Source: Candidatus Pelagibacter communis
GTDB taxonomy: Bacteria; Pseudomonadota; Alphaproteobacteria; Pelagibacterales; Pelagibacteraceae
Length of the DNA stretch: 45,810 nt
Assembly (NCBI RefSeq): GCF_001179965.1
Contig: NZ_CVSH01000053.1
Location: 1-45,810 of the forward strand
Reading direction: 5' to 3'
Below the pieces are notes generated by a model. That model had not been told where the DNA came from, did no database searches, and saw only the letters and a program-made list of their open reading frames with translations. Below are positions 3,885 through 41,615 of the stretch, one piece after another; position 1 is the first letter of the stretch; every line of letters starts with the position of its first letter. The position numbers and the translations under genes were made by a program.

Positions 3885-4000
3885 GTTTGTAAAATTATTA
3901 TATTTTTAACTAAAATAAATTGAAAAAATTATATTTCAATTAAAAGTTGTATTTATTTATTTTGTATCACTCTCCTCAAGCTGTTAAATATTGTGTGAAA

Positions 4001-9044: not shown

Positions 9045-9045
9045 T

Positions 9046-10179: not shown

Positions 10180-10182
10180 ATT

Positions 10183-12898: not shown

Positions 12899-12930
12899 AA
12901 GCGCCTTTTATATCCAAAATTTAATGCGGA

Positions 12931-16403: not shown

Positions 16404-16404
16404 T

Positions 16405-19205: not shown

Positions 19206-20384
19206 TTAACTTCTCATTTTTGATCCGCTTGGATCATAAAGTGGTTCTTTAATTAAATTGCAATTAAATAAGTCTCCGTTAATTTCTACTTGAATTCCTT
19301 TTCCTGAATTTAATTTATTTGTATCTAAATAACTGAACGCAACACTTTTATTTACAAAATGGGCAAAACCCCCTGAAGTTACATATCCTATCGCCTTATC
19401 ATCTTTTAATACAGCTTCATTATAAGTTACATCGATTTCGTTTGTCTCAACTACCATAGGTGTAAGTTTGTTTGAGCTTTTATCTTCTTTGGCATATTTT
19501 TTACCAATAAACTCTTTATCCCAATTAATAAAAGCGTCTAATCCTGTTTCTTTAGCTGTAAAATCGGGCCTGTAGTCTAATGTCCATGCACCCCAATTTT
19601 TTTCTAATCTCATCGACATTAAAGCTCTTAATCCAAATGGTTTAATATTAAATTCTTTTCCAGCCTCAGTTAATTCTTCATACAATTTTATTTGATAGTG
19701 AGGAGCAACATATATTTCGTAACCCAGTTCTCCCGTAAAGGAAATTCTATTGACTATAGCTGGCACTCCCGCAACATACATTCTTCTAGAGTCTCTAAAT
19801 TTAAATTTTTCATTAGATACATTATCTCTTACAACTTTTTGCAGTACTTCCCTAGATTTTGGACCTGAAATAGCTAGTCCATGAAAATCATCAGATCTAT
19901 TTTTATATTCTAGATTAAACTTACCTATATGGCTTTCAAACCATCTTCTATGCATCTCTTGAGCTGCACCAGATCCAAATATCATAAATTCATTATCATC
20001 CATGCAAGCAACTGTTAAATCACCATATAATTTTCCTTTCCTAGTTAGCATTGGGCTTAGGGAAATTCTTCCAGGTTTTGGCAGTTTTCCTGCCATAACG
20101 TAATCAAGAAATTTTTTGGCATCTGGCCCTTTAAATTCGTGTTTTGAAAAATTCGCAAGTTCCATCACCCCAACATTTTCTCTAACATTTATTACTTCCT
20201 TGGATACATAATTATGTGATCTTGATCTTTTTATTGTTGGTTCCTCGTATGCATCTTTTTTATCATTAGCAAACCACAAAACACTTTCTAAACCAAAACC
20301 GTCTCCCATTACTGCACCTTGATTAACAAAACGATCGTATAGAGCTGTGGTTTTTTTGTTTTCTACCTTTTGGTAAAGTTTCAT
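19206..20384 (-). CDS. GcvT-like folate domain of dimethylglycine dehydrogenase (C-terminal half)
   Basis: 392 aa from the ATG at 20384, with no Shine-Dalgarno before it. It carries the aminomethyltransferase fold that binds tetrahydrofolate: TTALYDRFVNQGAVMGDGFGLESVLWF near the start, then VRENVGVMELANFSKHEFKGPDA, and the SFTGELGYEIYVAP block. In typical dimethylglycine/sarcosine dehydrogenases this domain is fused behind the FAD domain. Here the two frames overlap by 62 bp and join smoothly if one A is dropped from a seven-A run (plus-strand T7 at 20351-20357). The joined protein would have about 801 aa, the family length. It would pass the N-methyl group to THF as methylene-THF. Confidence 0.85.
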   Translation of the reverse strand: MKLYQKVENKKTTALYDRFVNQGAVMGDGFGLESVLWFANDKKDAYEEPTIKRSRSHNYVSKEVINVRENVGVMELANFSKHEFKGPDAKKFLDYVMAGKLPKPGRISLSPMLTRKGKLYGDLTVACMDDNEFMIFGSGAAQEMHRRWFESHIGKFNLEYKNRSDDFHGLAISGPKSREVLQKVVRDNVSNEKFKFRDSRRMYVAGVPAIVNRISFTGELGYEIYVAPHYQIKLYEELTEAGKEFNIKPFGLRALMSMRLEKNWGAWTLDYRPDFTAKETGLDAFINWDKEFIGKKYAKEDKSSNKLTPMVVETNEIDVTYNEAVLKDDKAIGYVTSGGFAHFVNKSVAFSYLDTNKLNSGKGIQVEINGDLFNCNLIKEPLYDPSGSKMRS

Positions 20385-21612
20385 TGGGAAAGGTCATAAT
20401 AAATCTTCTCTCATAATTTTCAGAAGATTTTATTGTTCCATATTGAGGTGTTGCATATTCTCCAAATCTTGCAACATCCATAGCCCATACATCAATTGAT
20501 GGTTCGCCATCTATAATCCACTCTGCTATACATTTGCCAACTCCACCACCTTGGCAAAATCCTGCCATAACTCCAACCGCTACCCAATAATTTTTCATAC
20601 CAGGAACTGGTCCAATTAATGGGCTACCATCTGGCCCAAAAGTAAAAGGTCCATTTACAATATTTTTAATACCAGCTCTTTCTAAAGCAGGCATTCTTTT
20701 AAAACCAATTGCTAATCTATCTTGAATGTTTTCTAATTTTGGCTCTAAAAGTTCATGGCCAAAATTCATTGGAGTGCCCTCCACTTTCCATGGTGTTGAT
20801 TTAGGTTCATAAGTTCCCAACAACATTCCTTTTGCTTCTTGTCGAAAATAAATATTTCCTTCAAAATCTGTTCCAATAGGTAATCTTTGATCACCCATTG
20901 CCTCTATTTCTGGAATTGTCTCAGTAATTAAATAGTGATGCTCCATTGGCTGAACAGGAAGATCTACACCTGATAGATGCCCAACTTCTCTAGCCCATAA
21001 TCCTCCAGCATTAATAACGATTTCTGCATTGATATTTCCTTTGTCTGTAAATACATCCCACGAACCATCTGGCTTTTGCTTCGTATCCTTCACCACTGTA
21101 TGAGTATAATATTTGCCACCATGAACTTTTGCAGCTTTTGCAAAAGCATACGTAACACCAGATGGATCTACCTCTCCATCAATTGGATCCCATAATGCTA
21201 ATAAATACTTTTTTGGATCAATTAAGGGATGTTTTTTTTTAACTTCTTCTAGAGATATAAATTCTTGATCTAAACCCATATATCTTGCTTTAGATCTTTC
21301 TCTTTTTAAATATTCAGCCCACACATCATTTGAAGCTAAATAAAAACCACCGCTAGGTTTAAAACCAACTGAATGCCCAGATTCTTTCTCAATCTCTTTA
21401 TAAAGACCTATAGTATATGCCATCATTCTTGAGATATTTGGATCAGAGGAAATAACGTGGACATTTCCAGCTGCATGCCAAGATGATCCTGAAGTTAATT
21501 CATTTCTCTCAAGTAAAATACAATCTTTTAATCCAAATTTAGATAAATGATAAAGAATTGAGCATCCAACTACTCCGCCACCGATAATTACTACTTTGGC
21601 GTTTTTTTCCAT
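20323..21612 (-). CDS. dimethylglycine dehydrogenase FAD domain (N-terminal half, frameshifted)
   Basis: 429 aa. GGGVVG at residues 11-16 is the dinucleotide-binding motif, and GSSWHAAG with His46 is the site that binds FAD covalently in dimethylglycine and sarcosine dehydrogenases. FGPDGSPLIGPVPG and MAGFCQGGGVGK complete the DAO fold. The frame runs as in fused homologues up to about PKGRKQK (residue 420), then nine unrelated residues end at a stop. Correct reading would continue into the GcvT half in the +1 frame. It oxidises dimethylglycine to sarcosine in the betaine pathway and follows the BHMT gene with a TAATG overlap. Confidence 0.88.
   Translation of the reverse strand: MEKNAKVVIIGGGVVGCSILYHLSKFGLKDCILLERNELTSGSSWHAAGNVHVISSDPNISRMMAYTIGLYKEIEKESGHSVGFKPSGGFYLASNDVWAEYLKRERSKARYMGLDQEFISLEEVKKKHPLIDPKKYLLALWDPIDGEVDPSGVTYAFAKAAKVHGGKYYTHTVVKDTKQKPDGSWDVFTDKGNINAEIVINAGGLWAREVGHLSGVDLPVQPMEHHYLITETIPEIEAMGDQRLPIGTDFEGNIYFRQEAKGMLLGTYEPKSTPWKVEGTPMNFGHELLEPKLENIQDRLAIGFKRMPALERAGIKNIVNGPFTFGPDGSPLIGPVPGMKNYWVAVGVMAGFCQGGGVGKCIAEWIIDGEPSIDVWAMDVARFGEYATPQYGTIKSSENYERRFIMTFPNETLPKGRKQKNHSSIRSFC
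20351..20357 (-). other. A7 run at the dimethylglycine dehydrogenase frame break
   Basis: Seven T on the plus strand (A7 in the mRNA) sit where the FAD-domain frame and GcvT-domain frame overlap. Removing one base gives the continuous reading GRKQKTTALYD, matching the usual fused enzyme. The cause may be an assembly error, a real mutation, or a site of polymerase slippage. Confidence 0.7.
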
Positions 21613-22658
21613 TAATATTTATCTTTCATTTTAGTATTAAGCTCTAAAAATGATTTATCCTTTCCATGAAGCCAGTGTCTACTCATGTCAGGATAATATT
21701 TGTAAGCAATTGGTTTTCTGCCAAGAGCTACAGACATTTCTCTAACATGATGAGGTTCTGCACCACAGCAAATTCCAATTAGATTTATATTTTGTTTCAG
21801 ACAATCTTTAGCAAATTCAGCCATTTCAAATCTATTGCAGTACAAATTATCTAAAGCTACAGGAAAAGCATTCCCACCTGGTATACAATCACATCCTGGA
21901 TCTTTTTGATTTAAAAAACCAGGTTGTTCTTCAGTGGTTCTGTATGGAACTGGTAATGCAGCAACGTGACAAGAAACTTTTTTTCTAATTTCTGGCAGAA
22001 GTTTCATTGTCATTGCAGGTCCTCTATAACAATTAAGACCAACAACATCTGCGCCCAAATCTTCCATAATTTTACATGCATCGCCTGGGGTATGACCTTC
22101 TCTTGTTTTGTCACCTTTTTTAATTGAGAAGTTTGTCACAGCTATCATGCCTGCATCTTTTATTGCCTTTAAAGCAATTTTCATTTCTTCAGTCCAATTA
22201 ATTGTTTCAGCTACTATAAAATCAACGCCTGCTTCTTTTGCCCAGCCAACTTGCTCTTCGTACATTTTTTGACACTCAATATGACTTTTTTTGTCATCTG
22301 GATTGTAAATATTAGTATTTGCAACATCACCGCAAACTAATAGATCCAAATCTTTAAACTCATCTCTTGCGTCTTTTGCAATTTGAAGAGCATTTTTTTG
22401 AAGTGGTTCCAGCAAATCTTCTTTACCAATCAGTCTAAGCTTTTCTCTGTGACCATAATAAGTAAAAGCTTGAACAATATCAGTGCCTGCTCTAATAAAT
22501 TCTCTATGTAATTGAGAAACTACTTCAGGATGCTCCAATACCACTTCAGGTACAAATGCACCTGCCGATAAATATCCTCTTCTTTCCATTGCAAATAAAT
22601 ATCCCTCTGCAAAAAGAACAGGTCCTTCATTTAATCTTGTTATTAAATCTTTTGTCAT
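21612..22658 (-). CDS. bhmT: betaine-homocysteine S-methyltransferase
   Basis: 348 aa of the homocysteine methyltransferase barrel. The zinc ligands are Cys210 (GLNCYRG) and Cys297/Cys298 (GICCGAEP), matching the C, CC triad of BHMT. RREFIRAGTDI-like and AFTYYGHREKL blocks also fit. It moves a methyl from glycine betaine to homocysteine, giving dimethylglycine and methionine. The next gene downstream, in a TAATG overlap, encodes the dimethylglycine dehydrogenase FAD domain, which fits that substrate order. A strong Shine-Dalgarno lies before the ATG. SAR11 bhmT genes are known to be controlled by SAM riboswitches; I could not confirm one here. Confidence 0.88.
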   Translation of the reverse strand: MTKDLITRLNEGPVLFAEGYLFAMERRGYLSAGAFVPEVVLEHPEVVSQLHREFIRAGTDIVQAFTYYGHREKLRLIGKEDLLEPLQKNALQIAKDARDEFKDLDLLVCGDVANTNIYNPDDKKSHIECQKMYEEQVGWAKEAGVDFIVAETINWTEEMKIALKAIKDAGMIAVTNFSIKKGDKTREGHTPGDACKIMEDLGADVVGLNCYRGPAMTMKLLPEIRKKVSCHVAALPVPYRTTEEQPGFLNQKDPGCDCIPGGNAFPVALDNLYCNRFEMAEFAKDCLKQNINLIGICCGAEPHHVREMSVALGRKPIAYKYYPDMSRHWLHGKDKSFLELNTKMKDKY

Positions 22659-22955: not shown

Positions 22956-23975
22956 ATGAAAATAAAAAACATACTTGTTTCCGCACTTGTAATATTGGGT
23001 TTCACTTCTTTTAGTGGGATTGCAAATGCATCATGTGGAAAATTAGTTATTGCTGAACAGAACTGGGCTTCTGCTGAGTTAATGGCTAACGTAGATAAAA
23101 TTATCCTTGAAAAAGGTTACGGTTGCGAGGTTGAGCTTATACCTGGTGCAACTATGCCAACTTTTACTTCAATGGATGAAAAAGGTGAGCCAGACATGAA
23201 CCCAGAACAATGGGCAAATGCTGTTTACACACCATTAAAAAAAGCAGTTTCAGAGAAAAGATTAATCATTGCTAACCAAGCTCCAATTACTGGTCTTGGT
23301 GAAGGTTGGTGGATTACTCCAGGAACTGTTGAAAAACATCCAGAGATTAAAGGGATGACAGCAATGGAAATTTTAGAGCACCCAGAGTGGTTTCCATCAA
23401 AAGAAGATCCTTCAAAAGGAGCTTTTGTTGGTTGTCCAGCAGGTTGGGGATGTCAATTAGCTAATGCAAACCTTTTCAGAGCATTTGAAATGGAGAAAAA
23501 AGGTTGGGTATTAATCGATCCAGGTTCAGCTGCTGGTTTAGATGGAACAATATCTAAAGCTGCTGACTCAGGTAGCCCATGGTTTGGTTACTATTGGAAC
23601 CCAACATCAATGGTTGGAAAATATGGTTTGATATCAGTCGACTTTGGTGTGAAGTTTCACAGCAGAGATAACTGGGATAACTGTATTACTTTAGCTGAAC
23701 AAGATTGTGCAGATCCAAAACCAACTGCTTGGACTAAATCAGAGGTAAACTCTATCGTTACTGCAAACTTTGCAAAAACTGGAGGAAAAGACGCTTTGAA
23801 ATATGTTAAAAAGCGAACTTATCCAGGTGACGTTATGAACTCTATGTTAGTTTATATGGCTGATAACCAAGCTAAAGGTTCGGATGCTGCAGTTGAGTTT
23901 TTAAAGCAGCATGAAGGTGTTTGGGGTAAATGGGTATCTTCAGCAGCTAAGAAAAAAATCAAAGCTGGTCTGTAA
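22956..23975 (+). CDS. proX: glycine betaine-type ABC transporter substrate-binding protein
   Basis: 339 aa. Residues 1-25 form a signal peptide (hydrophobic core, cleavage near IANA/S), giving a periplasmic protein. The mature part has the OpuAC fold: KLVIAEQNWASAELMANVDK, GATMPTFTSM, MNPEQWAN and GEGWWITPGTV, followed by FVGCPAGWGCQLANANLF. Several tryptophans are in positions suited to an aromatic cage for trimethylammonium groups. In SAR11 this type of protein is known to bind glycine betaine with broad specificity for related osmolytes. It is followed by a strong hairpin and then proW. The ATPase gene is elsewhere (4001-5029). Confidence 0.92.
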   Translation: MKIKNILVSALVILGFTSFSGIANASCGKLVIAEQNWASAELMANVDKIILEKGYGCEVELIPGATMPTFTSMDEKGEPDMNPEQWANAVYTPLKKAVSEKRLIIANQAPITGLGEGWWITPGTVEKHPEIKGMTAMEILEHPEWFPSKEDPSKGAFVGCPAGWGCQLANANLFRAFEMEKKGWVLIDPGSAAGLDGTISKAADSGSPWFGYYWNPTSMVGKYGLISVDFGVKFHSRDNWDNCITLAEQDCADPKPTAWTKSEVNSIVTANFAKTGGKDALKYVKKRTYPGDVMNSMLVYMADNQAKGSDAAVEFLKQHEGVWGKWVSSAAKKKIKAGL

Positions 23976-23987
23976 TTTATAAATTTA

Positions 23988-24019
23988 TTAACGAGCCTAT
24001 TTAATTATAGGCTCGTTAA
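23988..24019 (+). terminator. 13-bp hairpin between proX and proW
   Basis: TTAACGAGCCTAT (23988-24000) and its exact complement ATAGGCTCGTTAA (24007-24019) enclose a 6-base loop. The stem has a GC-rich core unusual for this DNA. No long T run follows, so it is probably a partial attenuator or a 3'-end-stabilising element. Either would give more proX than proW mRNA, as is common for binding proteins. Confidence 0.8.
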
Positions 24020-24033
24020 TCTTTAAGTTTGAT

Positions 24034-24918
24034 ATGGATTTTTTAACGAAATTTCCTGTTATGGAACGATCTTCTCTCATGGAGTTGAGAAAAGGAATTG
24101 ATTTCGCTTTTAGGGATTTTTCAAGATCATATGGTGACTCCATCGAAGCGTTTTTCGATCCATTGTTATTTTTTTTAATTAAATTAGAAAAGTTATTATT
24201 AGCAACACCTTGGCCAATAATCTTATTAGTTCTTGGTGCTTTAGCATGGTTGGGTTCAAGAAGCTGGAAACTAGTTATAGGAAGTGTTGTTGCATTTATG
24301 TTAATCGGCTACTTCGGCATGTGGAAAGATTGCATGGCAACAGTAGCTATAATTACAGTTTGTACAATTATGTGTATAGCGGTTGGTATTCCAATTGGGG
24401 TTCTGATGGCAAGATCAGATAGAGTTGAAAGAGCAATGCTTCCAGTTTTAGACATGATGCAAACAATACCAAGCTTTGTATATTTGATACCGATATTAAT
24501 GTTATTAGGTATTGGGAAAATTCCAGGTTTAATTGCAGTATGTATTTATGCAATCCCACCCGTGATAAGACTTACTAACTTAGGAATTAGAGAGGTGGAT
24601 AAAGAAACAATTGAAGCTAGTGAAGCTTTTGGTGCAACAAAATTACAAAAATTAAGAACAGTGCAAATACCTCTTGCATTGCCTACAGTGTTTGCTGGAG
24701 TTAACCAAACTATAATGATGGCATTAGCTATGGTTGTAATAGCCTCTATGATCGGGGTAAAAGGACTTGGGGTTCCAATTTTAAGAGCTATATCTAACCA
24801 ATATTTAGCATTAGGTTTATTTAATGGACTTGCAATCGTGGCTTTGGCGATAATTTTTGATAGAATTACTCAAGAATACGGCCGAAGAATTCAAAAACAC
24901 CGAGGCACAAAAAGATAG
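24034..24918 (+). CDS. proW: glycine betaine-type ABC transporter permease
   Basis: 294 aa with an N-terminal soluble part (about 50 residues) and about six hydrophobic helices. The EAA loop typical of ABC permeases is seen at ETIEASEAFGATKLQKLRTVQIPLALP, where the EAFGA core contacts the ATPase. MMQTIPSFVYLIPILMLLGIGKIPG is highly typical of ProW/OpuAB. It forms the inner-membrane channel for quaternary amines with ProX and, by inference, the distant ProV. It lies 15 bp after the intergenic hairpin and is followed by the MetF-like gene. Confidence 0.92.
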   Translation: MDFLTKFPVMERSSLMELRKGIDFAFRDFSRSYGDSIEAFFDPLLFFLIKLEKLLLATPWPIILLVLGALAWLGSRSWKLVIGSVVAFMLIGYFGMWKDCMATVAIITVCTIMCIAVGIPIGVLMARSDRVERAMLPVLDMMQTIPSFVYLIPILMLLGIGKIPGLIAVCIYAIPPVIRLTNLGIREVDKETIEASEAFGATKLQKLRTVQIPLALPTVFAGVNQTIMMALAMVVIASMIGVKGLGVPILRAISNQYLALGLFNGLAIVALAIIFDRITQEYGRRIQKHRGTKR

Positions 24919-24982
24919 TTTTCTTATCCCATATCAAGCGATTTTTATAGACAGAAATTTCAAAATAAATAAATATCCAGTT

Positions 24983-25711
24983 ATGAAATTTTCTGTTGAA
25001 ATTGGTCCCAAAACAGACCTAGAAACCTTACCTAATCTTAAAGATGTTTATATTACAATGCTACCTGGAGGAGACTATAAAGAGACAGCCCAGCAAGCAA
25101 TAAATCTTGTTAAAAAAGGGTATAATCCAATCCCTCACTTTCCAGCAAGATCAATTGAAAATAATAATCAACTTAAAGAATATGTGTCCATGTGCAAGGA
25201 CGGGGGCGTAAAGCAAGTTTTAGTTATAGGTGGGGGTCGTGAGCCAGCAGGAAAATTTGATAGCTCGTTTCAACTTTTAGAGACTGGTTATTTTGAGAAG
25301 ATGAAGATAGGAATTGCTGGACATCCTGAGGGGAGTCCTGATATATCCGATTCAGATTTAGAAAAAGCTATGATAGATAAAAAGCCTTATGCTGATTATA
25401 TCGTAACCCAGTGGTTATTAGATCCTCAGCCAATCGTAGATTTTATTTCTAAACAAAGCGTGCCAGTGCATGTTGGAATTACTGGACCTCTAAAAATATC
25501 AAGCTTAATTAAATTTGCGAATATTGTTGGAGCAAAAAATTCCTTAAATTTTCTTAAATCTAATTTTAGTAAGGCGTTAGATTTATTAAAACCTAAAGAC
25601 CCAAATGAATTAATTGAGAAATTAAAAATGCACACCGATTTTTTTCACATTTATACATTCGGCGGCTTGAAGGAAACTAACAAGTGGTTGAAGGAGAATA
25701 AATATGTCTAA
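24983..25711 (+). CDS. short methylenetetrahydrofolate-reductase-like protein (MetF family)
   Basis: The frame is open from 24857 inside proW, but similarity begins at the ATG at 24983 (242 aa), which I prefer. KFSVEIGPKTD matches the FEFFPPKTD start of MetF with its conserved Glu. YITMLPGGDYKETAQQA, YNPIPHFPARSI and VLVIGGGREPAG follow the strand order of the MTHFR barrel, and IGIAGHPEGSPD corresponds to the conserved GYPEGHP block. It is shorter than MetF (about 290 aa). It probably converts methyl-THF to methylene-THF or binds folate. It overlaps the next gene by eight bases and likely serves that GcvT/DmdA-like enzyme. Confidence 0.75.
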   Translation: MKFSVEIGPKTDLETLPNLKDVYITMLPGGDYKETAQQAINLVKKGYNPIPHFPARSIENNNQLKEYVSMCKDGGVKQVLVIGGGREPAGKFDSSFQLLETGYFEKMKIGIAGHPEGSPDISDSDLEKAMIDKKPYADYIVTQWLLDPQPIVDFISKQSVPVHVGITGPLKISSLIKFANIVGAKNSLNFLKSNFSKALDLLKPKDPNELIEKLKMHTDFFHIYTFGGLKETNKWLKENKYV

Positions 25712-27059
25712 AGAGTTTGATTATTCAAGACTAAAGCATGAAACATCTGTAAATCAATCAGATCGACATGTTCCATATAATTTAAGACAAAGCGGTCCAA
25801 CAAAAGTTGAATTATTAATATCGACAAGAGTGAGAAAATCACCCTACTGGCATTTATCAATGAGAGCAGGATGTTGGAGAGCAACAGTTTATAATCGTAT
25901 TTACCATCCAAGAGGATATGTAAAAGGCAAAAATGGAGCAATGGTAGAATATAAATCAATTAAAAATGATGTAACAATGTGGAATGTTGCTGTTGAGAGA
26001 CAAATTAGAGTTAAAGGTAGAGATGCTGAAAAATTTGTTAACTATGTAATTACTAGAGACGCAACAAAAATTTCTCCAATGAGAGCAAGGTATGTAATTC
26101 TTTGTAACTATAAAGGTGGAGTTTTGAACGATCCTATTTTGTTAAGAGTAGCAAAAGATGAATTTTGGTTTAGTTTGTCTGATAGTGATATTGGATTATA
26201 CCTCCAAGGAGTTAATGCTAACAAAAAGTTTAAGTGCGAAATAGATGAAATAGATGCATGTCCGGTTCAAATACAAGGGCCTAAATCTAAAGCTTTAATG
26301 AAAGATTTAATAGGAAGACAAGTGGATTTAGATAACATGCCATATTATGGATTAGCAAAAGCCAGAGTTGGTGGAAGAGAATGCATTATTTCTCAATCAG
26401 GTTTTTCTGGAGAAGCTGGTTATGAAATATATTTAAAGAATGCAACTAAATACGCTGATGATATGTGGAATGCTGTTCTGAAAGCTGGAAAAAAACATAA
26501 ATTAAGAGTGATCGCTCCAGCACACCACAGAAGAATTCAAGCAGGAATTTTATCTTGGGGTCAAGATCTAGATCATGAGCACAATCCTTTTCAGTGTAAT
26601 CTTGGTTATCAGGTTTCACTTTCAGGAAAAGGTGAGTGGAAAAAGAAAGCTAATTATATTGGTAAAGCTGCATTAGAAAAAATGAAATCTCAACTTAAGT
26701 CTGGTAAGAAACCTTATAAACTTCAGTTGGTTGGTTTAGAACTTGGTGGTAAACCGATAACTGAATATGCTCCAGATTTTTGGTTAATTTCAAAAGCCAG
26801 TGGAGGTAAGCCTGTTGGTTTTGTAACATCTCCTTGGTATCATCCTGAAAAGGGAACAAATATAGCAATGGGATATGTTCCATACGATGGCACAAAAAAT
26901 CCCAATGGTTTTCCAAAAGGTAGAGTTGGAACCAGGTATAAAGTGCATTTGCCAAGAAAATACTCATTAAAACCGGGTAAGCCAGTAGATGCTGTGGTTG
27001 TAGATATACCTTTTACTGAATCTTACCATGCTAATACAAGAGAAGTTGTAAAAGGCTAA
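25704..27059 (+). CDS. GcvT-family THF-dependent demethylase, DmdA-like
   Basis: 451 aa. The core matches the DMSP demethylase DmdA block by block: WNVAVERQIRVKGRDAEKFV, GGVLNDPILLRVAKDEFWFSL, CPVQIQGPKSKALM, SGFSGEAGYEIY and GILSWGQDLDHEHNPFQCNLG. It differs by a longer N-terminus (about 35 residues more) and a long insertion before the C-terminal barrel, so it is probably not DmdA itself. Relatives such as LigM also work beside a MetF. I infer transfer of a methyl group from an osmolyte to THF, in the cytosol. The substrate should be one imported by ProXW; glycine betaine, DMSP and TMAO-like compounds are candidates. Confidence 0.72.
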   Translation: MSKEFDYSRLKHETSVNQSDRHVPYNLRQSGPTKVELLISTRVRKSPYWHLSMRAGCWRATVYNRIYHPRGYVKGKNGAMVEYKSIKNDVTMWNVAVERQIRVKGRDAEKFVNYVITRDATKISPMRARYVILCNYKGGVLNDPILLRVAKDEFWFSLSDSDIGLYLQGVNANKKFKCEIDEIDACPVQIQGPKSKALMKDLIGRQVDLDNMPYYGLAKARVGGRECIISQSGFSGEAGYEIYLKNATKYADDMWNAVLKAGKKHKLRVIAPAHHRRIQAGILSWGQDLDHEHNPFQCNLGYQVSLSGKGEWKKKANYIGKAALEKMKSQLKSGKKPYKLQLVGLELGGKPITEYAPDFWLISKASGGKPVGFVTSPWYHPEKGTNIAMGYVPYDGTKNPNGFPKGRVGTRYKVHLPRKYSLKPGKPVDAVVVDIPFTESYHANTREVVKG

Positions 27060-34304: not shown

Positions 34305-34649
34305 TCAATCGATAAAATATTCAGGGATTTTTTCAATATTTGACTTTACTGAAGTAAAAAACTCGACTGAGCTAATTTTGATATTATTTGTTCTTCTATT
34401 TGAGTAATTTTTCAATTTATTTTTACCTTGTTGATGATAGTTTTTAGTGTTTTCTAATAACAACTTAGCATGATCAATAGTCGATTTGCCTGTTGTTCTT
34501 TGTAATGTTTCATTAAGACCATAACTTAATCCTGCTTGGTAGATGTTTCCAGATGAACCAATAGTGTAGGCAGGTCCAATAAGTGAGGCTGTAGACTGGA
34601 GACACCCTGTCAGAAATAATAGTGCAAAAATTTTAATATATTTTCCCAT
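34305..34649 (-). CDS. small lipoprotein of unknown function
   Basis: 114 aa. A short signal with lipobox LTGC (Cys16) indicates lipid attachment. The first part of the mature protein is small-residue rich (SLIGPAYTIGSSGNIYQAGLSYGLNETL), followed by a lysine/asparagine-rich tail. It is likely an outer-membrane lipoprotein; no domain is recognised. It sits between the GNAT and SoxG genes with gaps of 61 and 89 bp, so it may have its own promoter. Confidence 0.7.
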   Translation of the reverse strand: MGKYIKIFALLFLTGCLQSTASLIGPAYTIGSSGNIYQAGLSYGLNETLQRTTGKSTIDHAKLLLENTKNYHQQGKNKLKNYSNRRTNNIKISSVEFFTSVKSNIEKIPEYFID

Positions 34650-34738
34650 GATTCAAATAAAATCTGTGGGTACTGATATTTAGAATTTTTACAAGGTGCT
34701 AGAAAATAGTTATCCACATATGTTCATAATGAGATCGA

Positions 34739-35320
34739 TCAAATTGCTTTATAACCATACTCGAGACAAGCATCTGTGACAGAATGGTAGAGCGACTCAC
34801 CAAAACTTCTTAAAGATATAATTCTTATTTGATTTGTACTATCTTCGATATTGTCAATTGTAATGGTGATTCCATTATAGACTGTATTAGTACAATTATT
34901 TTTTTTTAAGCTCTCAATATCAAATGGTGATCCTTTTTTAATTACCTCTAGTACATCTGAGCCTTGAAGCTCAATTATAGATCTTGAATGAGAAATATCT
35001 GTAACTGCAAATTCAGTAGTGGAAAACTTTTCATTGAGTTCATTTAAAAGATTATTTGAGGAAATAACTAACCAGTTCTCTGGTCCCATCCATAAGATTC
35101 GTGTTTGATCATTTGAGTTTACTTTAAGTACTTCAGGAAAATTGAGATTATCAACTATTATCTCAGTGTTATTTTTTTTTGAATTTTTAAATTTTACAAC
35201 TTGATATATAAAAATATTTTTAATTTCTTTTATTTTTATTAATTGATTTTCATCTTTATTTTCAAAATTGCCATATTGACCTAAGTGATGGACTTTATTT
35301 AATGAAGAAATACTTGTCAT
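34739..35320 (-). CDS. soxG: sarcosine oxidase gamma subunit
   Basis: 193 aa. LWMGPENWLVIS and VTDISHSRSIIELQGSDVLEVIKKGSPFDIES follow the SoxG family, a GcvT-like fold without catalytic role that completes the heterotetramer. The ATG overlaps the soxA stop (ATGA). It is the last gene of soxBDAG. Confidence 0.88.
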   Translation of the reverse strand: MTSISSLNKVHHLGQYGNFENKDENQLIKIKEIKNIFIYQVVKFKNSKKNNTEIIVDNLNFPEVLKVNSNDQTRILWMGPENWLVISSNNLLNELNEKFSTTEFAVTDISHSRSIIELQGSDVLEVIKKGSPFDIESLKKNNCTNTVYNGITITIDNIEDSTNQIRIISLRSFGESLYHSVTDACLEYGYKAI

Positions 35321-38313
35321 GACCTAACTCTTTCTCCTTTTGGATCTACATAATGAGAAGAAACAATTTCAACAGGAATTGATTTATTTTTCAGTGGTGA
35401 TAGTGCAAATAGTTTTTGACCTATCATGTTTTTTCCATCTTTAATTATTGCAAGAGAAAAAGGATTATTATATTCAACGCTCCAACAAGATGCTGAAACA
35501 TGACCTAGCTTTGGATTGGGTAATTTCGCATTTGCATCTCTAACAATGTATGACCCCTCTGGAATACTTGTTTTTTTATCTAGAGGTACAACACCAACTA
35601 TTTTTTCTCTATCAGGTGAAATAAATGCCTCTTTTTGCAAAGATCTCTTTCCAATAAAATCTTTCTTTTTGCTTAACAAACCTTCTAGAGAGTTATCAAA
35701 TGGAGTAGTTCTACCATCAAGTTCTGAGCCAGCTACATGCCCCATCTCAATTCTTAAAGTTGATAAAGCCTCAGTGCCATAAGGTTGTATCTTAAATTCT
35801 TCTCCTAATTCAATTATTTTTTCCCACATAAAATTTCCATTATCTGACTCAACATTTACCTCGTATGCAAGTTCTCCTGAAAAGGAAATTCTAAAAATTC
35901 TAGCGTAAACACCAAATAATTTCGTTTCGATAAATCCCATGAAAGGTAAACCTTCATTTGAGCAATCTGTTTCAGGAAAAAGTTTTTGAAGAAGATCTCT
36001 TGATTTAGGTCCAGCAATTGCAGCTCCAGCCCATTGCTCTGTTGTTGATACTACATTTACATTTAATTCGGGCCAAACTATTTGAAGATAATATTCTAAA
36101 TGAGATAGAACATTTGCAGCTTGAGCAGTTGTTGTTGTCATATGGTAATGATTTTCTGATACTCTTGTTGTAGTTCCATCATCCATTACTATTCCATCCT
36201 CTCTTAACATTACTCCGTATCTTGCTTTACCAACAGGAAGTTTTAACCATGCATTAGTATAAACTCTGTTTAAAAACTCTGCAGCATCTGGACCCTTCAC
36301 GTCAATTTTCCCTAGGGTAGTCACATCACATACCCCAACATTTTTTCTAACATTTTCTGCTTCTCTTTTTGAAGCATCAAATAATGTTTCATTTCCTTTT
36401 TTGTAATATCTTGGCCTCAACCAAAGTCCTGCATCAACAAATACAGCATTATTTTTTTCATGCCATGAGTGCATTGGAGATTTTCTAGTTGGTTTAGAGT
36501 GTTTGCCAACCTCTCGACCTACAATCGCACCAATAGATACTGGGGTGTAAGGTGGTCTAAAAGTTGTATGACCAACCTCAGGTACTACTTTGTTTTCAAT
36601 GTTTGAAACCAATTGTAAACCATTTAAATTACTAGTTTTACCTTGATCAGTAGCCATCCCTAATGTTGTATATCTTTTTACATGCTCAATTGATCTGTAA
36701 CCTTCTCTTAATGCTAATTCTATATCTGAAACCGCTACATCATTTTGAAAATCTAAAAATCTTTTATACTTTTTACCTTTTGGTAACGGGACACACCAAA
36801 ATTTATCATGTTTTGAATTTTTTTTCTCAACAACTGCGGGCACAGATAATTTATTTTCTTTGCTAGTAATTTTTTTTGATAGTTCGTATCCTGCTTCAAA
36901 AGAATTTTTTAGTGTATCATTCAAATTAAATATCCCATTTGCAGATCCAACTGTTGTTTCATTCTGTTTAGATTGACTTGGAATAAATGCATCAATATCT
37001 TTATTGAATTTTGTCTTACCTCCTGATTGAGATGCTAAATGAATTGTAGGTGTCCAAAATCCTGATACACATATACAATCACAAGCAATATTCTCAATTT
37101 TTCCAAGATTAGTTTTATCTTCAGAGATCTTAGCAATATCTGCAGATTTAACTTTTCTATAACCATTTGCATTTACTACTACATGTTCAAATTTAATATC
37201 TATACCCAAATTCTTTGCCTCAGTTATTAAATCAGAATTTAACTCTTTTCTAGAATCAAGAACTATCGGATTAATTCCATTTTTTTTAAACTCTATCGCT
37301 GTCTCATAGGCGCTGTCATTATTTGTAAAGATTAAAGGTTTTTTACCAACCAAGACTCCATATACTTTCATATATTCCTTTGCAGCTGATGAAAGAAGAA
37401 TACCTGGGGTATCATTATTTCCAAAAACTATAGGTCTCTCAATCGAGCCTGAGGATATTACTACTTCTTTTGCTCTTATGTACCATAACTTCTGCTTTGG
37501 CATAAATTTTTCAGTTTTTGGCATGTGCTCAGAAATTCTTTCAGACATGACAAGCATATTGTGATCGTAATAACCAAACACTTGTGCTCTATTTTTTACT
37601 ACAACATTTGGCATCTCTTTAAGCTCAGTTACTATTTTGTCTGCCCATTCTTTTCCTGTTTGATTTCCAATTGTAACTTCACTAGTTAAAAGGCTTCCAC
37701 CAAATCTCGGTTTATCTTCGGCTAGAATTACTTTAGCGCCATTTTTAGCTGCTGAATAAGCGCTTGCTAAACCTGATGGACCTGATCCTGTAACCAACAA
37801 ATCACAATACTCATATTTATGTTCATATCTTTCTTTATCGTGCTCATGAGTTACAACTCCAAAGCCAGCTGCCTTTCTAATAAATGGCTCATATATTCTA
37901 TACCAGAAACTTTTTGGCCACATAAACGTTTTGTAATAAAAACCGGCAGGTAAAAAAATTCTTAAAAAATTATTAATTCCACCTATGTCAAAATTAACAT
38001 TTGGCCAACAATTCACACTCTTAGCCTCAAGCCCTTCAAATAATTCTTGCTCTGTTGCTTTAATATTTGGAATGGTCTCATTATTTCTTATTAGCTGAAC
38101 AAGAGCATAAGGGTCGTCAACTCCAGCACCATAAAAGCCTCTTGGCCTATGATATTTAAAACTTCTACCAACTAGATGAACGCCATTTGCTATAAGAGCG
38201 GACGCTAAGGTATCTCCCTCATATCCAAAATATTTTTTTCCATTAAATTTAAATGAAATTTTTTTGGATCTATCAATTAATCCCTCATCTTTTAATCTAA
38301 ATTCTTGTGTCAT
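35317..38313 (-). CDS. soxA: sarcosine oxidase alpha subunit
   Basis: The ATG at 38313 (998 aa) lies just after the soxD stop; the TTG two codons earlier is less likely. Domains in order are the ferredoxin-like SoxA N-terminal domain (about residues 15-100), a two-dinucleotide-binding NAD/FAD region (LLVTGSGPSGLASAY, about 173-440), and a C-terminal GcvT-type folate domain (about 640-985, with SFSGELAYEVNVES). It binds NAD and THF, and accepts the methyl carbon of sarcosine as methylene-THF, with H2O2 made by SoxB. Soluble, cytosolic. The order B-D-A-G is standard. Confidence 0.93.
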   Translation of the reverse strand: MTQEFRLKDEGLIDRSKKISFKFNGKKYFGYEGDTLASALIANGVHLVGRSFKYHRPRGFYGAGVDDPYALVQLIRNNETIPNIKATEQELFEGLEAKSVNCWPNVNFDIGGINNFLRIFLPAGFYYKTFMWPKSFWYRIYEPFIRKAAGFGVVTHEHDKERYEHKYEYCDLLVTGSGPSGLASAYSAAKNGAKVILAEDKPRFGGSLLTSEVTIGNQTGKEWADKIVTELKEMPNVVVKNRAQVFGYYDHNMLVMSERISEHMPKTEKFMPKQKLWYIRAKEVVISSGSIERPIVFGNNDTPGILLSSAAKEYMKVYGVLVGKKPLIFTNNDSAYETAIEFKKNGINPIVLDSRKELNSDLITEAKNLGIDIKFEHVVVNANGYRKVKSADIAKISEDKTNLGKIENIACDCICVSGFWTPTIHLASQSGGKTKFNKDIDAFIPSQSKQNETTVGSANGIFNLNDTLKNSFEAGYELSKKITSKENKLSVPAVVEKKNSKHDKFWCVPLPKGKKYKRFLDFQNDVAVSDIELALREGYRSIEHVKRYTTLGMATDQGKTSNLNGLQLVSNIENKVVPEVGHTTFRPPYTPVSIGAIVGREVGKHSKPTRKSPMHSWHEKNNAVFVDAGLWLRPRYYKKGNETLFDASKREAENVRKNVGVCDVTTLGKIDVKGPDAAEFLNRVYTNAWLKLPVGKARYGVMLREDGIVMDDGTTTRVSENHYHMTTTTAQAANVLSHLEYYLQIVWPELNVNVVSTTEQWAGAAIAGPKSRDLLQKLFPETDCSNEGLPFMGFIETKLFGVYARIFRISFSGELAYEVNVESDNGNFMWEKIIELGEEFKIQPYGTEALSTLRIEMGHVAGSELDGRTTPFDNSLEGLLSKKKDFIGKRSLQKEAFISPDREKIVGVVPLDKKTSIPEGSYIVRDANAKLPNPKLGHVSASCWSVEYNNPFSLAIIKDGKNMIGQKLFALSPLKNKSIPVEIVSSHYVDPKGERVRS

Positions 38314-38315
38314 TA

Positions 38316-38582
38316 TCAAAGCTCTTCGTGAGGTTTTAAAGTTTTAAATATTTCATGAGTAGCTGTATCTCTATGAACTTTAAACCATTGTCTACAACCT
38401 GAGATGTGATGCCAAAACTCTAAATGTTTTCCTCTGGGACTTTTTCTATTGTAAACAAAATCATCCCATTCTTTATCAGAAATTTCCTTGTTAAGTTCTG
38501 GTCTTTTTACTGTGGCATCACCACCATAAGCAAATTCATTTTGAGATCTTATTCCACAATATGGGCATTTTATAAATAGCAT
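38316..38582 (-). CDS. soxD: sarcosine oxidase delta subunit
   Basis: 88 aa. The zinc ligands are Cys6/Cys9 (CPYCG), His59 and Cys63 (HHISGCRQWF), the pattern of SoxD. It is a structural subunit of the heterotetramer. It abuts soxB and the soxA ATG follows right after its stop. Confidence 0.92.
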   Translation of the reverse strand: MLFIKCPYCGIRSQNEFAYGGDATVKRPELNKEISDKEWDDFVYNRKSPRGKHLEFWHHISGCRQWFKVHRDTATHEIFKTLKPHEEL

Positions 38583-39839
38583 TTAAGATATCCAAGTTTT
38601 TGTTCCAAGACCTTTCTCGTCTAATAAATATCCCTTGCTAAATCTATTTAAACTATAATCTGCATTTAATTTATGTACTTTGTCTTGTGCAATAGTGTGT
38701 GCAAACGTCCAACCAGATGCGGGAGTTGATTTAAAACCACCATAACACCAACCACAGTTTAAATATAATCCTTCAATATGTGTTTTATCAATTATAGGTG
38801 AGCCATCCATTGACATATCCATTATACCACCCCATGTCCTCAACATTTTTAATTTACTTAAAAATGGGAACATTGCTATTCCTTCAGTTAATACATGTTG
38901 TAAAGTTGGTAAGTTTCCTCTTTGAGCATAACTATTATAACCGTCAAGGTCACCTCCCATAACCATTTCGCCTTTGTCTGACTGACTGCAATAAAAATGT
39001 CCTGCACCAAATGTAACTACATGATCCAATAGAGGTTTAATAGGCTCAGATACACATGCTTGTAAAAGATGTGTCTCAATTGGAAGTGTCATATTTAATT
39101 TTTCAGCGAGAATTGATGTGCTGCCAGCAACACATAGTCCTATTTTGTTTGCCTTAATATCACCTTTTGAAGTTCTTACTCCTTTTATTTTTCCACCAAC
39201 CACATCAAAACCAATTACTTCGCAATTTTGAATTATATCAACACCCATTGAATCTGCTTGTCTTGCATAACCCCAAGCAACTGCGTCGTGCCTTGCTGTT
39301 CCAGCGCTGGGCTGCATCAATCCCCCAAATATTGGAAATCTTACATCTTCAGAAAAATCTGCCATAGGAATTAGTTTTTTTACTTGTTCCCTATTTAATA
39401 AAACTGCATCGATACCGTTTAATCTCATTGAGTTTCCTCTTCTTGCGTAAGCATTCATTTGAGCATCAGAATGTGCAAGGTTAATAATTCCTCTTGGAGA
39501 GAACATTACATTGAAGTTCAGTTCCTGACTCATGTTTCTCCATAGATCCATAGAGAATTCGTTAAATCTTCCATTGGCATCGTGCATAAAATTGGATCTT
39601 ATAATTGTAGTATTTCTTCCAACATTACCTCCCCCTATCCAACCTTTTTCTATGATAGCAACATTTGTAATATTATGTTCTTTAGCTAGATAATATGCGG
39701 TAGCGAGCCCATGTCCTCCACCTCCAATTATAATTACATCATAACTTTTTTTTGGAGTTGGGTCTTTCCAGGCAACTTCCCAATTTTCATGACTAGAGAA
39801 GGCGTTCTTTATGAGGTTAAATACTGAATACTTTTGCAT
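38583..39839 (-). CDS. soxB: sarcosine oxidase beta subunit
   Basis: I take the ATG at 39839 (418 aa). The frame extends to 39989 but that part runs into the start of fhs on the other strand and has no similarity. SYDVIIIGGGGHGLATAYYLA is the FAD-binding start; NVGRNTTIIRSNFMHD and CYGGFKSTPASGW match SoxB. It oxidises sarcosine to glycine and holds FAD and covalent FMN in the known enzyme. First gene of soxBDAG, divergent from fhs with about 90 bp between. Confidence 0.93.
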   Translation of the reverse strand: MQKYSVFNLIKNAFSSHENWEVAWKDPTPKKSYDVIIIGGGGHGLATAYYLAKEHNITNVAIIEKGWIGGGNVGRNTTIIRSNFMHDANGRFNEFSMDLWRNMSQELNFNVMFSPRGIINLAHSDAQMNAYARRGNSMRLNGIDAVLLNREQVKKLIPMADFSEDVRFPIFGGLMQPSAGTARHDAVAWGYARQADSMGVDIIQNCEVIGFDVVGGKIKGVRTSKGDIKANKIGLCVAGSTSILAEKLNMTLPIETHLLQACVSEPIKPLLDHVVTFGAGHFYCSQSDKGEMVMGGDLDGYNSYAQRGNLPTLQHVLTEGIAMFPFLSKLKMLRTWGGIMDMSMDGSPIIDKTHIEGLYLNCGWCYGGFKSTPASGWTFAHTIAQDKVHKLNADYSLNRFSKGYLLDEKGLGTKTWIS

Positions 39840-39917
39840 AATTAATAATACACTTAATTTATTTCTTTCAAAATTAAATAATAAAGTATAGAAATCTCGA
39901 GCATAATATAAAGTTCT

Positions 39918-39924
39918 AAAGGAG
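39918..39924 (+). promoter_or_regulatory. Shine-Dalgarno of fhs
   Basis: AAAGGAG lies 5 bp before the ATG at 39930 and fixes the start. The 90-bp space to soxB must also hold divergent promoters, which I cannot place. Confidence 0.8.
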
Positions 39925-39929
39925 ACAAA

Positions 39930-41615
39930 ATGGGCGCAGTCAAGTCTGACATTGAGATAGCAAGAAGTGCCAAAATGCAGCCTATACAAGATATTTTAGC
40001 AAAAATTAACGTTCCAAATAAAATTGAGGCTTTCAGTCCAATGGGTCCTCATATAGCAAAAATCAACCTGGAGTATCTAGATAGTATTAAAGATAATAAA
40101 AATAGTAAGCTAGTATTAGTAACTGCAATTACTCCTACTCCAGCAGGAGAAGGTAAGACTACAACATCAGTTGGACTTAATGATGGACTAAATAAAATTG
40201 GAAAAAAATCTATTGTATGTTTAAGAGAACCCAGTCTAGGACCGTCATTTGGAATGAAAGGTGGGGCTGCAGGTGGTGGTTATGCTCAAGTTGTGCCAAT
40301 GGAACAAATCAATTTACATTTCACGGGAGATTTTCATGCAATAACATCTGCTCACAATTTATTGTCAGCATTAATTGATAATCACATTTATTGGGGAAAT
40401 AAATTAAACATAGATGTTAGAAGAGTTGTTTGGAAAAGAGTTATAGATATGAATGATAGATCCCTTAGATCAATAAATATTAATCTTGGAGGTGTCGCTA
40501 ATGGTTATCCAAGACAAGATGGTTTTGATATTACTGTAGCTTCAGAGATAATGGCAATCTTTTGCTTGGCAAACAATCTTGAAGATTTAGAAAAAAGAAT
40601 TGGTAATATAACTATTGCGTATACAAGAGAAAAGAAACCTATTTACGCAAAAGACCTAAATGCACAAGGTCCTATGACAGTTTTATTAAAAGATGCAATC
40701 AAACCAAATATTACACAAACTTTAGAAAATAATCCTGCAATTATTCATGGTGGACCATTTGCAAATATTGCTCATGGATGTAACTCCGTAATAGCCACAA
40801 AGGCAGGTCTTAAATTAGCAGATTATGTTGTGACTGAAGCAGGTTTTGGTGCAGATCTAGGTGCTGAAAAGTTTTTGGATATTAAATGTAGAAAATCAGG
40901 ATTAAAACCTGATTGTGTTGTCATAGTTGCAACTATTAGGGCTTTGAAAATGCATGGAGGTGTAGAGAAAGCAGATTTGAAAAAAGAAAATGTCGATGCA
41001 GTTAAAAAAGGTTTAGTAAATTTAGAAAGACACATAAATAATGTAAGGAAATTTGGATTACCAGTAACTGTTGCTATAAATAAATTTATTTTAGATACAG
41101 AAAATGAGTCAAAAGCATTATTAGATTTTTGCAAAAAGTTGGATGTAAAAGCCTCGATGTGTACTCATTGGGCAGATGGAGGAAATGGTACAAAAGAACT
41201 TGCGCAAACTGTTGTGAATATATGTGAAAATGAAAAAAATAATTTTAATTATTTATATGAGGATAAATTAACTTTATTTAAAAAAATTGAAAAAATAGCA
41301 GTTGAAATTTATCGTGCAAGTGAAGTAGTTGCAGATACTAAAATCAGACAACAATTAAAAGATTTTGAAGAAAAAGGATTTGGTAATTTACCTGTTTGTA
41401 TTGCAAAAACACAATATAGTTTTTCAACTGATCCTAGCCTTAAAGGTGCTCCTTCAGATCATGTGCTTCCTGTTAGAGAAGTAAGACTATCCTCTGGGGC
41501 TGAATTTGTAGTCATTGTATGTGGAGAAATAATGACAATGCCTGGACTTCCAAAAGTTCCAGCTGCAGATTCTATAAAGCTAAATAAAAAAGGTGAGATA
41601 GAAGGTTTATTTTAA
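39930..41615 (+). CDS. fhs: formate-tetrahydrofolate ligase
   Basis: 561 aa, full family length. [17 protein letters not shown] is the ATP-binding P-loop region, and [20 protein letters not shown] and [12 protein letters not shown] are strong Fhs signatures. The enzyme interconverts formate, THF and ATP with 10-formyl-THF. In bacteria oxidising methyl groups it can run towards formate and make ATP. Its position opposite soxBDAG fits the removal of the C1 unit from sarcosine. The last nine bases overlap the convergent gshB end. Confidence 0.96.

Follow-up and report, generated by a model that had tools for sequence, protein, structure and literature searches.

A DmdA-related protein paired with a short MetF in SAR11 is a predicted glycine betaine:tetrahydrofolate methyltransferase

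Organization of the locus

The SAR11 bacterium Candidatus Pelagibacter communis is represented by an 801-kb genome assembly that is 68% complete, and we analyzed the whole 45,810-nucleotide stretch of its contig 53 (NZ_CVSH01000053.1), hereafter the window. Four open reading frames (ORFs) on one strand encode a ProX-type binding protein, a ProW-type permease, a short MetF and a 451-residue GcvT-family protein that we call A1265. The ORF reading confirms the position and strand of all four as given in an earlier, sequence-only reading of this DNA, which took the layout to predict direct tetrahydrofolate (THF)-dependent demethylation of an imported osmolyte; the evidence below points to glycine betaine as the probable substrate. 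Labels beginning with L, G and f denote genomic loci, genomes and families, respectively, in the searched sets.

22956..23975, + strand: ProX-type periplasmic binding protein, DmpX-like, 339 aa (OpuAC 156 bits; PDB 7YLE)
24034..24918, + strand: ProW-type permease, 294 aa (BPD_transp_1 102 bits; choXWV permease model 271.6 bits, below the cut-off of 363)
24983..25711, + strand: short MetF, 242 aa, predicted 5-methyl-THF oxidiser (PDB 7XG9; pairing with A1265)
25704..27059, + strand: A1265, 451 aa, predicted glycine betaine:THF methyltransferase (GCV_T 139 bits and GCV_T_C 28.6 bits)
26403..26405, + strand: F234 codon of A1265, replacing the tryptophan of DmdA specific for dimethylsulfoniopropionate (DMSP) (alignment)

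ProX and ProW are separated by 58 nt and ProW and MetF by 64 nt, and the MetF and A1265 genes overlap by 8 nt. The MetF start is the ATG at 24983 (242 aa), and a start at the TTG at 24857 would extend the frame back into ProW. The protein scores just below the gathering threshold of the Pfam MTHFR model (22.6 bits; threshold 24), and its best PDB match is 7XG9 (E 1.4e-31), a 288-aa methylenetetrahydrofolate reductase (MTHFR) that we take to be the LigM-linked enzyme of Sphingobium SYK-6. It is predicted to oxidise 5-methyl-THF to 5,10-methylene-THF.

A1265 forms a clade of its own beside DmdA

The best PDB match of A1265 is the DMSP demethylase DmdA (3TFH, E 9e-44). The likeness to DmdA with a longer N-terminus and extra residues, noted from the sequence alone, is borne out by alignment to the genome's own DmdA-type protein, in which the match to DmdA starts only at residue 34 and the aligned part includes some 38 additional residues. 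A1265 nevertheless fails the model cut-offs of its relatives: it scores 232 bits with the NCBIfam DmdA equivalog model, below the cut-off of 410 (the DmdA-type protein of L145 scores 566 bits), falls short with two GcvT models (131.9 bits against a cut-off of 235.85, and 154.7 against 300), and does so by far with both LigM/DesA O-demethylase models (29 bits against 580, and 41.8 against 800). In a 51-row tree with long branches flagged, A1265 forms a separate 28-row clade (support 100/100) with the G076 protein just outside; the clade is sister to DmdA and DmdA-like proteins and lies apart from GcvT and trimethylamine N-oxide (TMAO) demethylase. Haloarchaeal rows fall inside it (with support from the Shimodaira-Hasegawa-like approximate likelihood ratio test, SH-aLRT, only). 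The sequence-only reading had staked its proposal on a phylogeny in which the protein would cluster neither with GcvT nor with DmdA, and it groups with neither.

The residues tell a similar story. A1265 and DmdA have in common an N-D-P motif (N142-D143-P144 in A1265) at a position where GcvT has D-D-L; the aspartate concerned is presumably the catalytic one. The folate residues E241 and Y243 are kept in 28/28 A1265 rows (E204 and Y206 of the 3TFH chain), and the DMSP-specific tryptophan is Phe (F234) in all 28 and Trp in 17/17 DmdA and DmdA-like rows. The DmdA residues W171, E178 and Y180 are named in PMC7487153, which has W171 interacting with DMSP; we equate W171 with W197 of the 3TFH chain, through an offset of 26 deduced from matching these three residues. 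The position of R231 in the DmdA type is Gln in A1265. Four tryptophans, W49, W58, W285 and W378, are invariant in the 28 A1265 rows and absent from the 17 DmdA and DmdA-like rows, apart from W285 in one, and would suit a pocket for a quaternary ammonium group. The G076 protein (L132) passes the score threshold but lacks this signature, having R231, W234 and Y285.

We considered whether A1265 might simply be a second DMSP demethylase feeding a general THF-linked one-carbon (C1) oxidation cluster, as the DmdA-type N-D-P motif and folate residues and the adjoining DmpX-like ProX would allow. This is highly improbable given the Trp-to-Phe change in every A1265 row and the score below the DmdA cut-off; moreover, the genome already has a DmdA-type protein that groups with 3TFH (L150, with its 566-bit counterpart in L145), and a second such enzyme gives no reason for the dimethylglycine dehydrogenase (DMGDH)-family matches found in 19/19 A1265 genomes (see below).

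Gene context of A1265 outside SAR11

Among 385 alphaproteobacterial genomes searched (E < 1e-120), 19 from 13 families encode A1265, with identities of 52-100% (G076 included); 349 genomes of the phylum add three more, all in one gammaproteobacterial family, and a plasmid search returns 16 haloarchaeal records (48-56% identity). The recurrent neighbours are dimethylglycine and sarcosine enzymes. L153 contains A1265, DMGDH, two electron-transfer flavoprotein (ETF) genes and an ETF:quinone oxidoreductase (ETF-QO); L154, L155 and L157 contain the sarcosine oxidase subunits SoxB and SoxA, a dimethylglycine oxidase (DMGO)-type protein, MetF and A1265 (the L154 SoxA, at 1120 bits, is just below the cut-off of 1164); L162-L164 contain DMGDH, A1265, SoxB and SoxA; L165 contains DMGDH and A1265; and in L166 SoxA and SoxB are divergent from A1265, MetF, Fhs (formate-THF ligase) and DMGDH. 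In the gammaproteobacterial locus L191, A1265 is accompanied by MetF, Fhs, an AraC/DJ-1 regulator (presumably with the architecture of GbdR), serine dehydratase and a DAO-GCV_T protein that has 32% identity with the DMGO type of L154; L192 has the DMGO-type gene, Fhs and MetF as in L191, and L190 is without an adjacent MetF.

The associated dehydrogenase is of the mitochondrial type (658 bits to DMGDH 4P9S) and the oxidase of the DMGO type (732 bits to 1PJ5); the two have a common architecture without being orthologous, and each type is found in the company of A1265. A gene of one or the other type lies within 10 kb of 13/18 alphaproteobacterial and 3/3 gammaproteobacterial A1265 genes; in L156 the DMGDH is 9 kb from A1265 (L193). 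As a control we used 11 DmdA-like genes from the same search that are 36-40% identical to A1265, in stretches that include one of 3.3 kb (L206) and one of 11.8 kb (L204), and none of the 11 loci contains DMGDH/DMGO, Sox, MetF or Fhs (Fisher p 7e-5 vs A1265).

Nine of the 16 haloarchaeal records were opened, and seven have the residue signature, keeping all signature residues but W49 (Phe). MetF lies within 10 kb in 7/7 of these loci and DMGO-like oxidases in 6/7; those of Haladaptatus score 568 and 572 bits to DMGO, and the other haloarchaeal ones are assigned by similarity. Serine hydroxymethyltransferase, FolD, Fhs, formate dehydrogenase and threonine ammonia-lyase genes are scattered over the haloarchaeal loci, and the Halomicrococcus locus has a BCCT transporter; together they can be read as a putative betaine-to-pyruvate-and-formate module. 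Two further haloarchaeal relatives, L198 (9980-11347) and L203, are without W58, W285 and W378 and lie near sulfur genes with no MetF or DMGO within 10 kb. They probably act on a different substrate, and the coincidence of lost tryptophans with absent MetF and DMGO genes argues for the betaine assignment of the signature-bearing proteins.

Phylogenetic profile of betaine demethylation genes

DMGDH and the MTTB family (that of MtgB; PF06253) were looked for in the 385 alphaproteobacterial genomes used above. DMGDH-family matches (E 1e-150 or better) are present in 19/19 A1265 genomes, among 129 genomes with such a match (Fisher p 4e-10). A close DMGDH, defined by a 53% identity cut-off set by eye among the matches listed, with partial matches in and two places scored per genome, is found in 69 genomes; MTTB occurs in 1/15 of those with A1265 vs 51/54 of those without (p 6e-11 with G076 counted as an A1265 genome and 8e-10 when it is moved out). 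At the wider threshold of 129 genomes the exclusion is weaker but kept (2/19 vs 78/110, p 8e-7). The single genome with both among the 15, G307, has a sole MTTB match of 8.6e-78, most others being below 1e-160. Counted by family, 39 have DMGDH, of which 11 have A1265, 28 have MTTB, two have both (f17 and f30) and two have neither; in f30 A1265 and MTTB are in different genomes. G416, one of three DMGDH genomes with neither, encodes GbcA-like proteins that score 421 bits, and the gene for one of these is less than 5 kb from DMGDH.

GbcA was over its equivalog cut-off in none of 25 genomes tested, and BHMT (betaine-homocysteine methyltransferase) was searched for with the window protein as query at E up to 1e-20. 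Two SAR11 genomes (G267 and G357, 99% complete and on one contig each) have A1265 and DMGDH with no detected BHMT or MTTB and no GbcA over the cut-off. In G158 and G435, of the same family and another genus, there is no match to A1265 (1e-60), DMGDH (1e-150) or MTTB (1e-30). The A1265 genomes G221, G180, G424, G135, G346 and G318 and the gammaproteobacterial A1265 genomes G502, G562 and G595 likewise give no BHMT or MTTB match and no GbcA over the cut-off.

Proposed reaction and pathway

We propose, with a probability of roughly 0.78, that A1265 is a glycine betaine:THF methyltransferase and that MetF oxidises the resulting methyl-THF. The trimethylammonium group of glycine betaine would be bound in a tryptophan-rich pocket and one methyl passed directly to N5 of THF, yielding dimethylglycine and 5-methyl-THF without cobalamin, through the same redox-neutral onium-to-folate chemistry as DmdA uses on DMSP. 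The short MetF would run in the oxidising direction, from 5-methyl-THF to 5,10-methylene-THF, which FolD and Fhs would then take to formate and ATP; dimethylglycine would be converted to glycine by dimethylglycine dehydrogenase or oxidase and sarcosine oxidase. In SAR11 this route would be catabolic, with the BHMT route making methionine. For a methyl to pass directly to THF it must be activated, like that of a sulfonium or quaternary ammonium compound; on this count glycine betaine qualifies as a donor and dimethylglycine and sarcosine do not. A 5-methyl-THF product would explain the MetF partner, and the predicted dimethylglycine product is the substrate of the co-travelling DMGDH or DMGO. 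The direct, THF-dependent demethylation parallel to BHMT and with a MetF partner that was anticipated from the sequence thus gains support from the neighbours, profile and residues, which sharpen it to a predicted reaction on glycine betaine.

Another quaternary osmolyte such as carnitine, proline betaine, trimethylammoniopropionate or a choline-derived compound could be the substrate, with DMGDH and Sox reflecting the use of multiple amines. The residue changes fit a trimethylammonium pocket and do not single out glycine betaine, and MTTB paralogues are described as working on several betaines (PMC12478193). We consider such a substrate unlikely, in that the DMGDH/DMGO substrate arises from glycine betaine demethylation and both types of dimethylglycine enzyme track A1265, and a betaine step is precisely what is wanted in the genomes in which DMGDH is present and MtgB, GbcA and BHMT were not detected.

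Several observations weigh against the assignment of A1265 to glycine betaine. Since the THF C1 pool is fed by each of MetF, Fhs, DMGDH and Sox, their genes could gather round any THF methyltransferase. A MetF of the S6 type is encoded in 14/18 A1265 genomes and also in 6/7 genomes chosen for MTTB that are without A1265, so its presence does not discriminate. The stretch around A1265 contains no DMGDH-type gene in 5/18 alphaproteobacterial genomes (G088, G426, G372, G180 and G361), and there is no dimethylglycine- or sarcosine-type neighbour in the stretches L158-L161, L167 and L168. BHMT matches occur in 10/21 A1265 genomes (G000 included), both A1265 and MTTB-family genes are carried by G307 and G361, G361 has a near-cut-off GbcA (635.6 of 670 bits), and weaker Rieske matches of up to 146 bits are present in most A1265 genomes. 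Over all 385 genomes, when DMGDH is not conditioned on, A1265 and MTTB show no association (p 0.39), and the Fisher p-values overstate the case because the genomes are related. The putative tryptophan pocket is unplaced, as an AlphaFold model from 25 SAR11 sequences was poor (predicted local distance difference test, pLDDT, 55) and was not used. Finally, the ProX in the window looks DMSP-type.

The MetF-A1265 pair in SAR11

A1265 is present at ≥76% identity in 52/61 SAR11 genomes (that of the window included), with an 85-residue fragment in one more, and such a distribution is not due to chance. A survey of loci on 80 genome contigs and the window finds MetF directly 5' of A1265 in 80/80 loci (window included) that have that gene on the contig, with overlaps of 8, 11 or 14 nt. 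The gene before MetF in 74 loci is ProW in 35, EgtB-like in 17, a Rieske oxygenase in 13 and others in 9, with a contig edge in 6 more. Because this gene varies, the conserved unit is the MetF-A1265 pair, and ProXW belongs to an exchangeable block; of the four-gene layout described in the sequence-only reading, the pair holds across SAR11 and the ProW placement in only 35/74. Among the 35 ProW loci, BHMT is visible in 30 and a DMGDH-like gene in 29.

The organization varies in other ways. In a second SAR11 family Fhs is divergent from MetF-A1265 (L149 and L152), and in G267 (L169) MetF-A1265 is followed by a Rieske operon and then by DMGDH and two ETF genes. G039 has a DmdA-like gene directly downstream of A1265, at a distance of 62 nt (L152, 3754-6296). 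The EgtB-like genes of 17 loci (L066, L096, L100 and 14 others) are mostly accompanied by an EgtD-like (histidine methyltransferase) gene, which suggests ergothioneine-type synthesis. The one EgtB-like gene tested matches FGE-sulfatase/DinB_2, and the family of genes next to it is histidine-methyltransferase-like.

The best PDB match of ProX is 7YLE (E 3e-52), the DMSP complex of Roseovarius DmpX (RnDmpX; PMC10030565), and ProX shares 7/8 of the DmpX pocket residues (W35, T64, W84, E113, W152, A153, Y200 and W202), A153 being replaced by Gly. ProX thus has the DMSP-type pocket of DmpX, with binding itself predicted, and its ligand may be DMSP, betaine or both; DMSP binding with a Kd of 100 nM has been reported for a SAR11 DmpX. 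No ATPase (V) gene is present between ProW and MetF, such that ProXW here is not a complete ProXWV/DmpXWV operon; a ProV-type gene on the same contig (3947-5029) is a candidate partner, and a second one over the cut-off is on contig C34. The DMSP-like pocket of ProX, and the variety of genes other than ProW that adjoin MetF-A1265, leave the transporter uninformative on the A1265 substrate. We dropped the deduction of the substrate from the transporter, and the transporter-demethylase layout fails as an argument with ProW in 35/74 loci, no ProV next to it and a DMSP-type ProX.

The chances are about even that the four-gene layout arose by accident, at a locus that varies across SAR11, and that the transporter serves DMSP. 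The varied genes before MetF (35, 17, 13 and 9 of 74) and the ProX pocket favour this, whereas the BHMT and DMGDH-like genes of the 35 ProW loci show that the block also fits betaine supply; neither outcome conflicts with the assignment of the enzyme.

MetF-A1265 is the apparent orthologue of SAR11_1264/SAR11_1265 in strain HTCC1062, judged from gene order and published description rather than HTCC1062 sequence, and the HTCC9565 orthologue is 84% identical to A1265. The substrate of the paralogue had been thought undescribed from the sequence alone; in fact Sun et al. listed the pair in 2011, as metF plus an aminomethyltransferase whose substrate was then unknown, and guessed that it takes the second DMSP methyl (PMC3160333). 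A1265 would then demethylate methylmercaptopropionate (MMPA) to mercaptopropionate. DmdA is indeed the closest solved structure, SAR11_1265 is placed near dmdA in the 2011 tree and has similar abundance (PMC3160333), ProX has a DMSP-type pocket, and many SAR11 loci encode an enoyl-CoA hydratase and a CoA-binding protein on the opposite flank of MetF-A1265. The recurrent neighbours outside SAR11, however, are dimethylglycine and sarcosine enzymes, which disfavours the 2011 hypothesis; the occurrence of the clade in haloarchaea points the same way, as does the finding that A1265 and the corrinoid betaine system almost exclude each other where DMGDH is present, and a thioether is, by general chemistry, a poor methyl donor for direct transfer. 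We give the MMPA reaction very little credence.

Published expression data bear on the predicted division of labour between BHMT and MetF-A1265. The P. ubique bhmT gene is downstream of a SAM-V riboswitch and sulfur limitation raises its mRNA 33.8-fold (PMC5069961); for SAR11_1264/1265, Table 1 of that study lists no mRNA change under sulfur limitation, a fall to 0.10-0.20 in stationary phase, and protein values of 1.29-1.46 in sulfur-limited samples. These data can be reconciled with a BHMT that is anabolic and a MetF-A1265 pair that does something else, and we regard them as weak evidence.

Other features of the window

Several other genes in the window have predicted roles in betaine, dimethylglycine and C1 metabolism.

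21612..22658, - strand: BHMT, 348 aa, divergent neighbour, homocysteine-dependent betaine route (S-methyl_trans 148 bits)
19206..21612, - strand: DMGDH-like gene (801 aa in relatives), two overlapping ORFs in the window (one-base indel)
38583-39989, - strand: SoxB (soxB 666.5 bits, over cut-off)
35317-38319, - strand: SoxA (soxA 1306 bits, over cut-off)
34739-35320, - strand: SoxG-like (soxG 73 bits, under cut-off)
within 34305..39989, - strand: small ORF at the SoxD position, without a model match
39930..41615, + strand: Fhs, formate-THF ligase, end of THF-linked C1 oxidation (916.5 bits, cut-off 652)
3947..5029, + strand: ProV-type ATPase (TIGR01186 357 bits, over the cut-off of 326.6)
23987..24020, + strand: 14-bp inverted repeat with a T-rich tail, terminator- or attenuator-like, between ProX and ProW (pattern scan)

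The window BHMT scores 107 bits with the betaine-homocysteine methyltransferase model, under the cut-off of 338. The apparently separate FAD oxidoreductase and GcvT-like ORFs at 19206-21612 are the halves of one DMGDH-like gene, which has one gap relative to L035 and L036 across 2407 nt; the L035 and L036 copies are whole, and the indel may be a sequencing or assembly error or a fresh mutation. An intact copy in L062 has mitochondrial DMGDH (5L46) as its best match (589 bits). By its model matches and gene order, the leftwards set at 34305..39989 is a predicted heterotetrameric sarcosine-oxidase-type enzyme.

The inverted repeat between ProX and ProW is perfect and might lower expression of the permease relative to the binding protein. 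It is weak evidence, because two such sites are observed in the region and 2.6 are expected in shuffled sequences. A search for riboswitches gave no Rfam match in the window at the gathering threshold.

An M24-family protein (15168-16403, - strand) resembles the DMSP lyase DddP (353 bits, cut-off 600) and is adjoined by a Rieske oxygenase gene (16405-17580) with a weak GbcA match (118 of 670 bits). The segments 8583-10557 and 14758-17580 (- strand) encode Rieske oxygenase, adenylylsulfate (APS)-kinase-like, nucleotidyltransferase-like, enoyl-CoA hydratase and CoA-binding proteins, a set that recurs beside SAR11 MetF-A1265. Two large ORFs of 765 and 596 aa (10601-14721, - strand), the first with an autotransporter beta-domain, are unusual cargo for a streamlined genome. 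An agmatinase/ureohydrolase-family gene (18216-19205, - strand; Arginase 217 bits) is labelled in the window and in L036 and not in most relatives.

Implications and comparison with known systems

Glycine betaine is a ubiquitous marine osmolyte and SAR11 is the most abundant marine heterotroph. Homocysteine supply caps BHMT, and betaine turnover through BHMT alone is therefore limited; if A1265 acts as predicted, SAR11 could burn betaine methyl groups for energy in addition to recycling them into methionine, and vitamin B12 would matter less to the demethylation of betaine in surface waters than has been supposed. Such an activity would also explain genomes that have dimethylglycine dehydrogenase with no detected betaine demethylase, and would give haloarchaea a module for betaine catabolism on plasmids. 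We think it probable that A1265 founds a cobalamin-, oxygen- and homocysteine-independent class of betaine demethylase in SAR11, other Alphaproteobacteria, one gammaproteobacterial family and haloarchaea, which replaces the unrelated MtgBCD. What would be new is the predicted substrate and pathway slot of a DmdA-related folate methyltransferase; in open-licence full text we found no paper assigning betaine:THF methyltransferase function to A1265.

A1265 is like DmdA (3TFH, SAR11_0246 type) in its GCV_T family, folate residues and N-D-P motif, and DmdA carries out a direct redox-neutral methyl transfer from an onium compound to THF (PMC5395565). It differs in forming its own clade, in being about 80 residues longer, in the W-to-F and R-to-Q changes and four clade-specific tryptophans, and in the dimethylglycine genes around it. 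In SYK-6 the GcvT-derived demethylase LigM is paired with an MTHFR that oxidises 5-methyl-THF (PMC12585457), an arrangement that MetF-A1265 would share, and the SAR11 MetF is nearest in the PDB to 7XG9, presumably this S6MTHFR; LigM, however, acts on aryl methyl ethers, and its model gives A1265 29 of 580 bits. The published role of the apparently orthologous SAR11_1264/1265 pair of HTCC1062 is the guess on MMPA (PMC3160333).

Three known systems act at the same step as that predicted for A1265. BHMT and A1265 are predicted to have the same first product, dimethylglycine, but the methyl acceptor of BHMT is homocysteine, and the glycine betaine monooxygenase GbcAB is an O2-dependent Rieske enzyme. 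MtgBCD carries out what would be the same overall reaction, in which THF receives a methyl of betaine and MetF is the partner (PMC12478193), but is cobalamin-dependent and of another protein family (MtgB, MTTB/PF06253). The 2025 study of MtgBCD closes the gap for other marine bacteria and proposes that only SAR11 relies on a single BHMT (PMC12478193), a proposal that a betaine:THF methyltransferase activity of A1265 would contradict.

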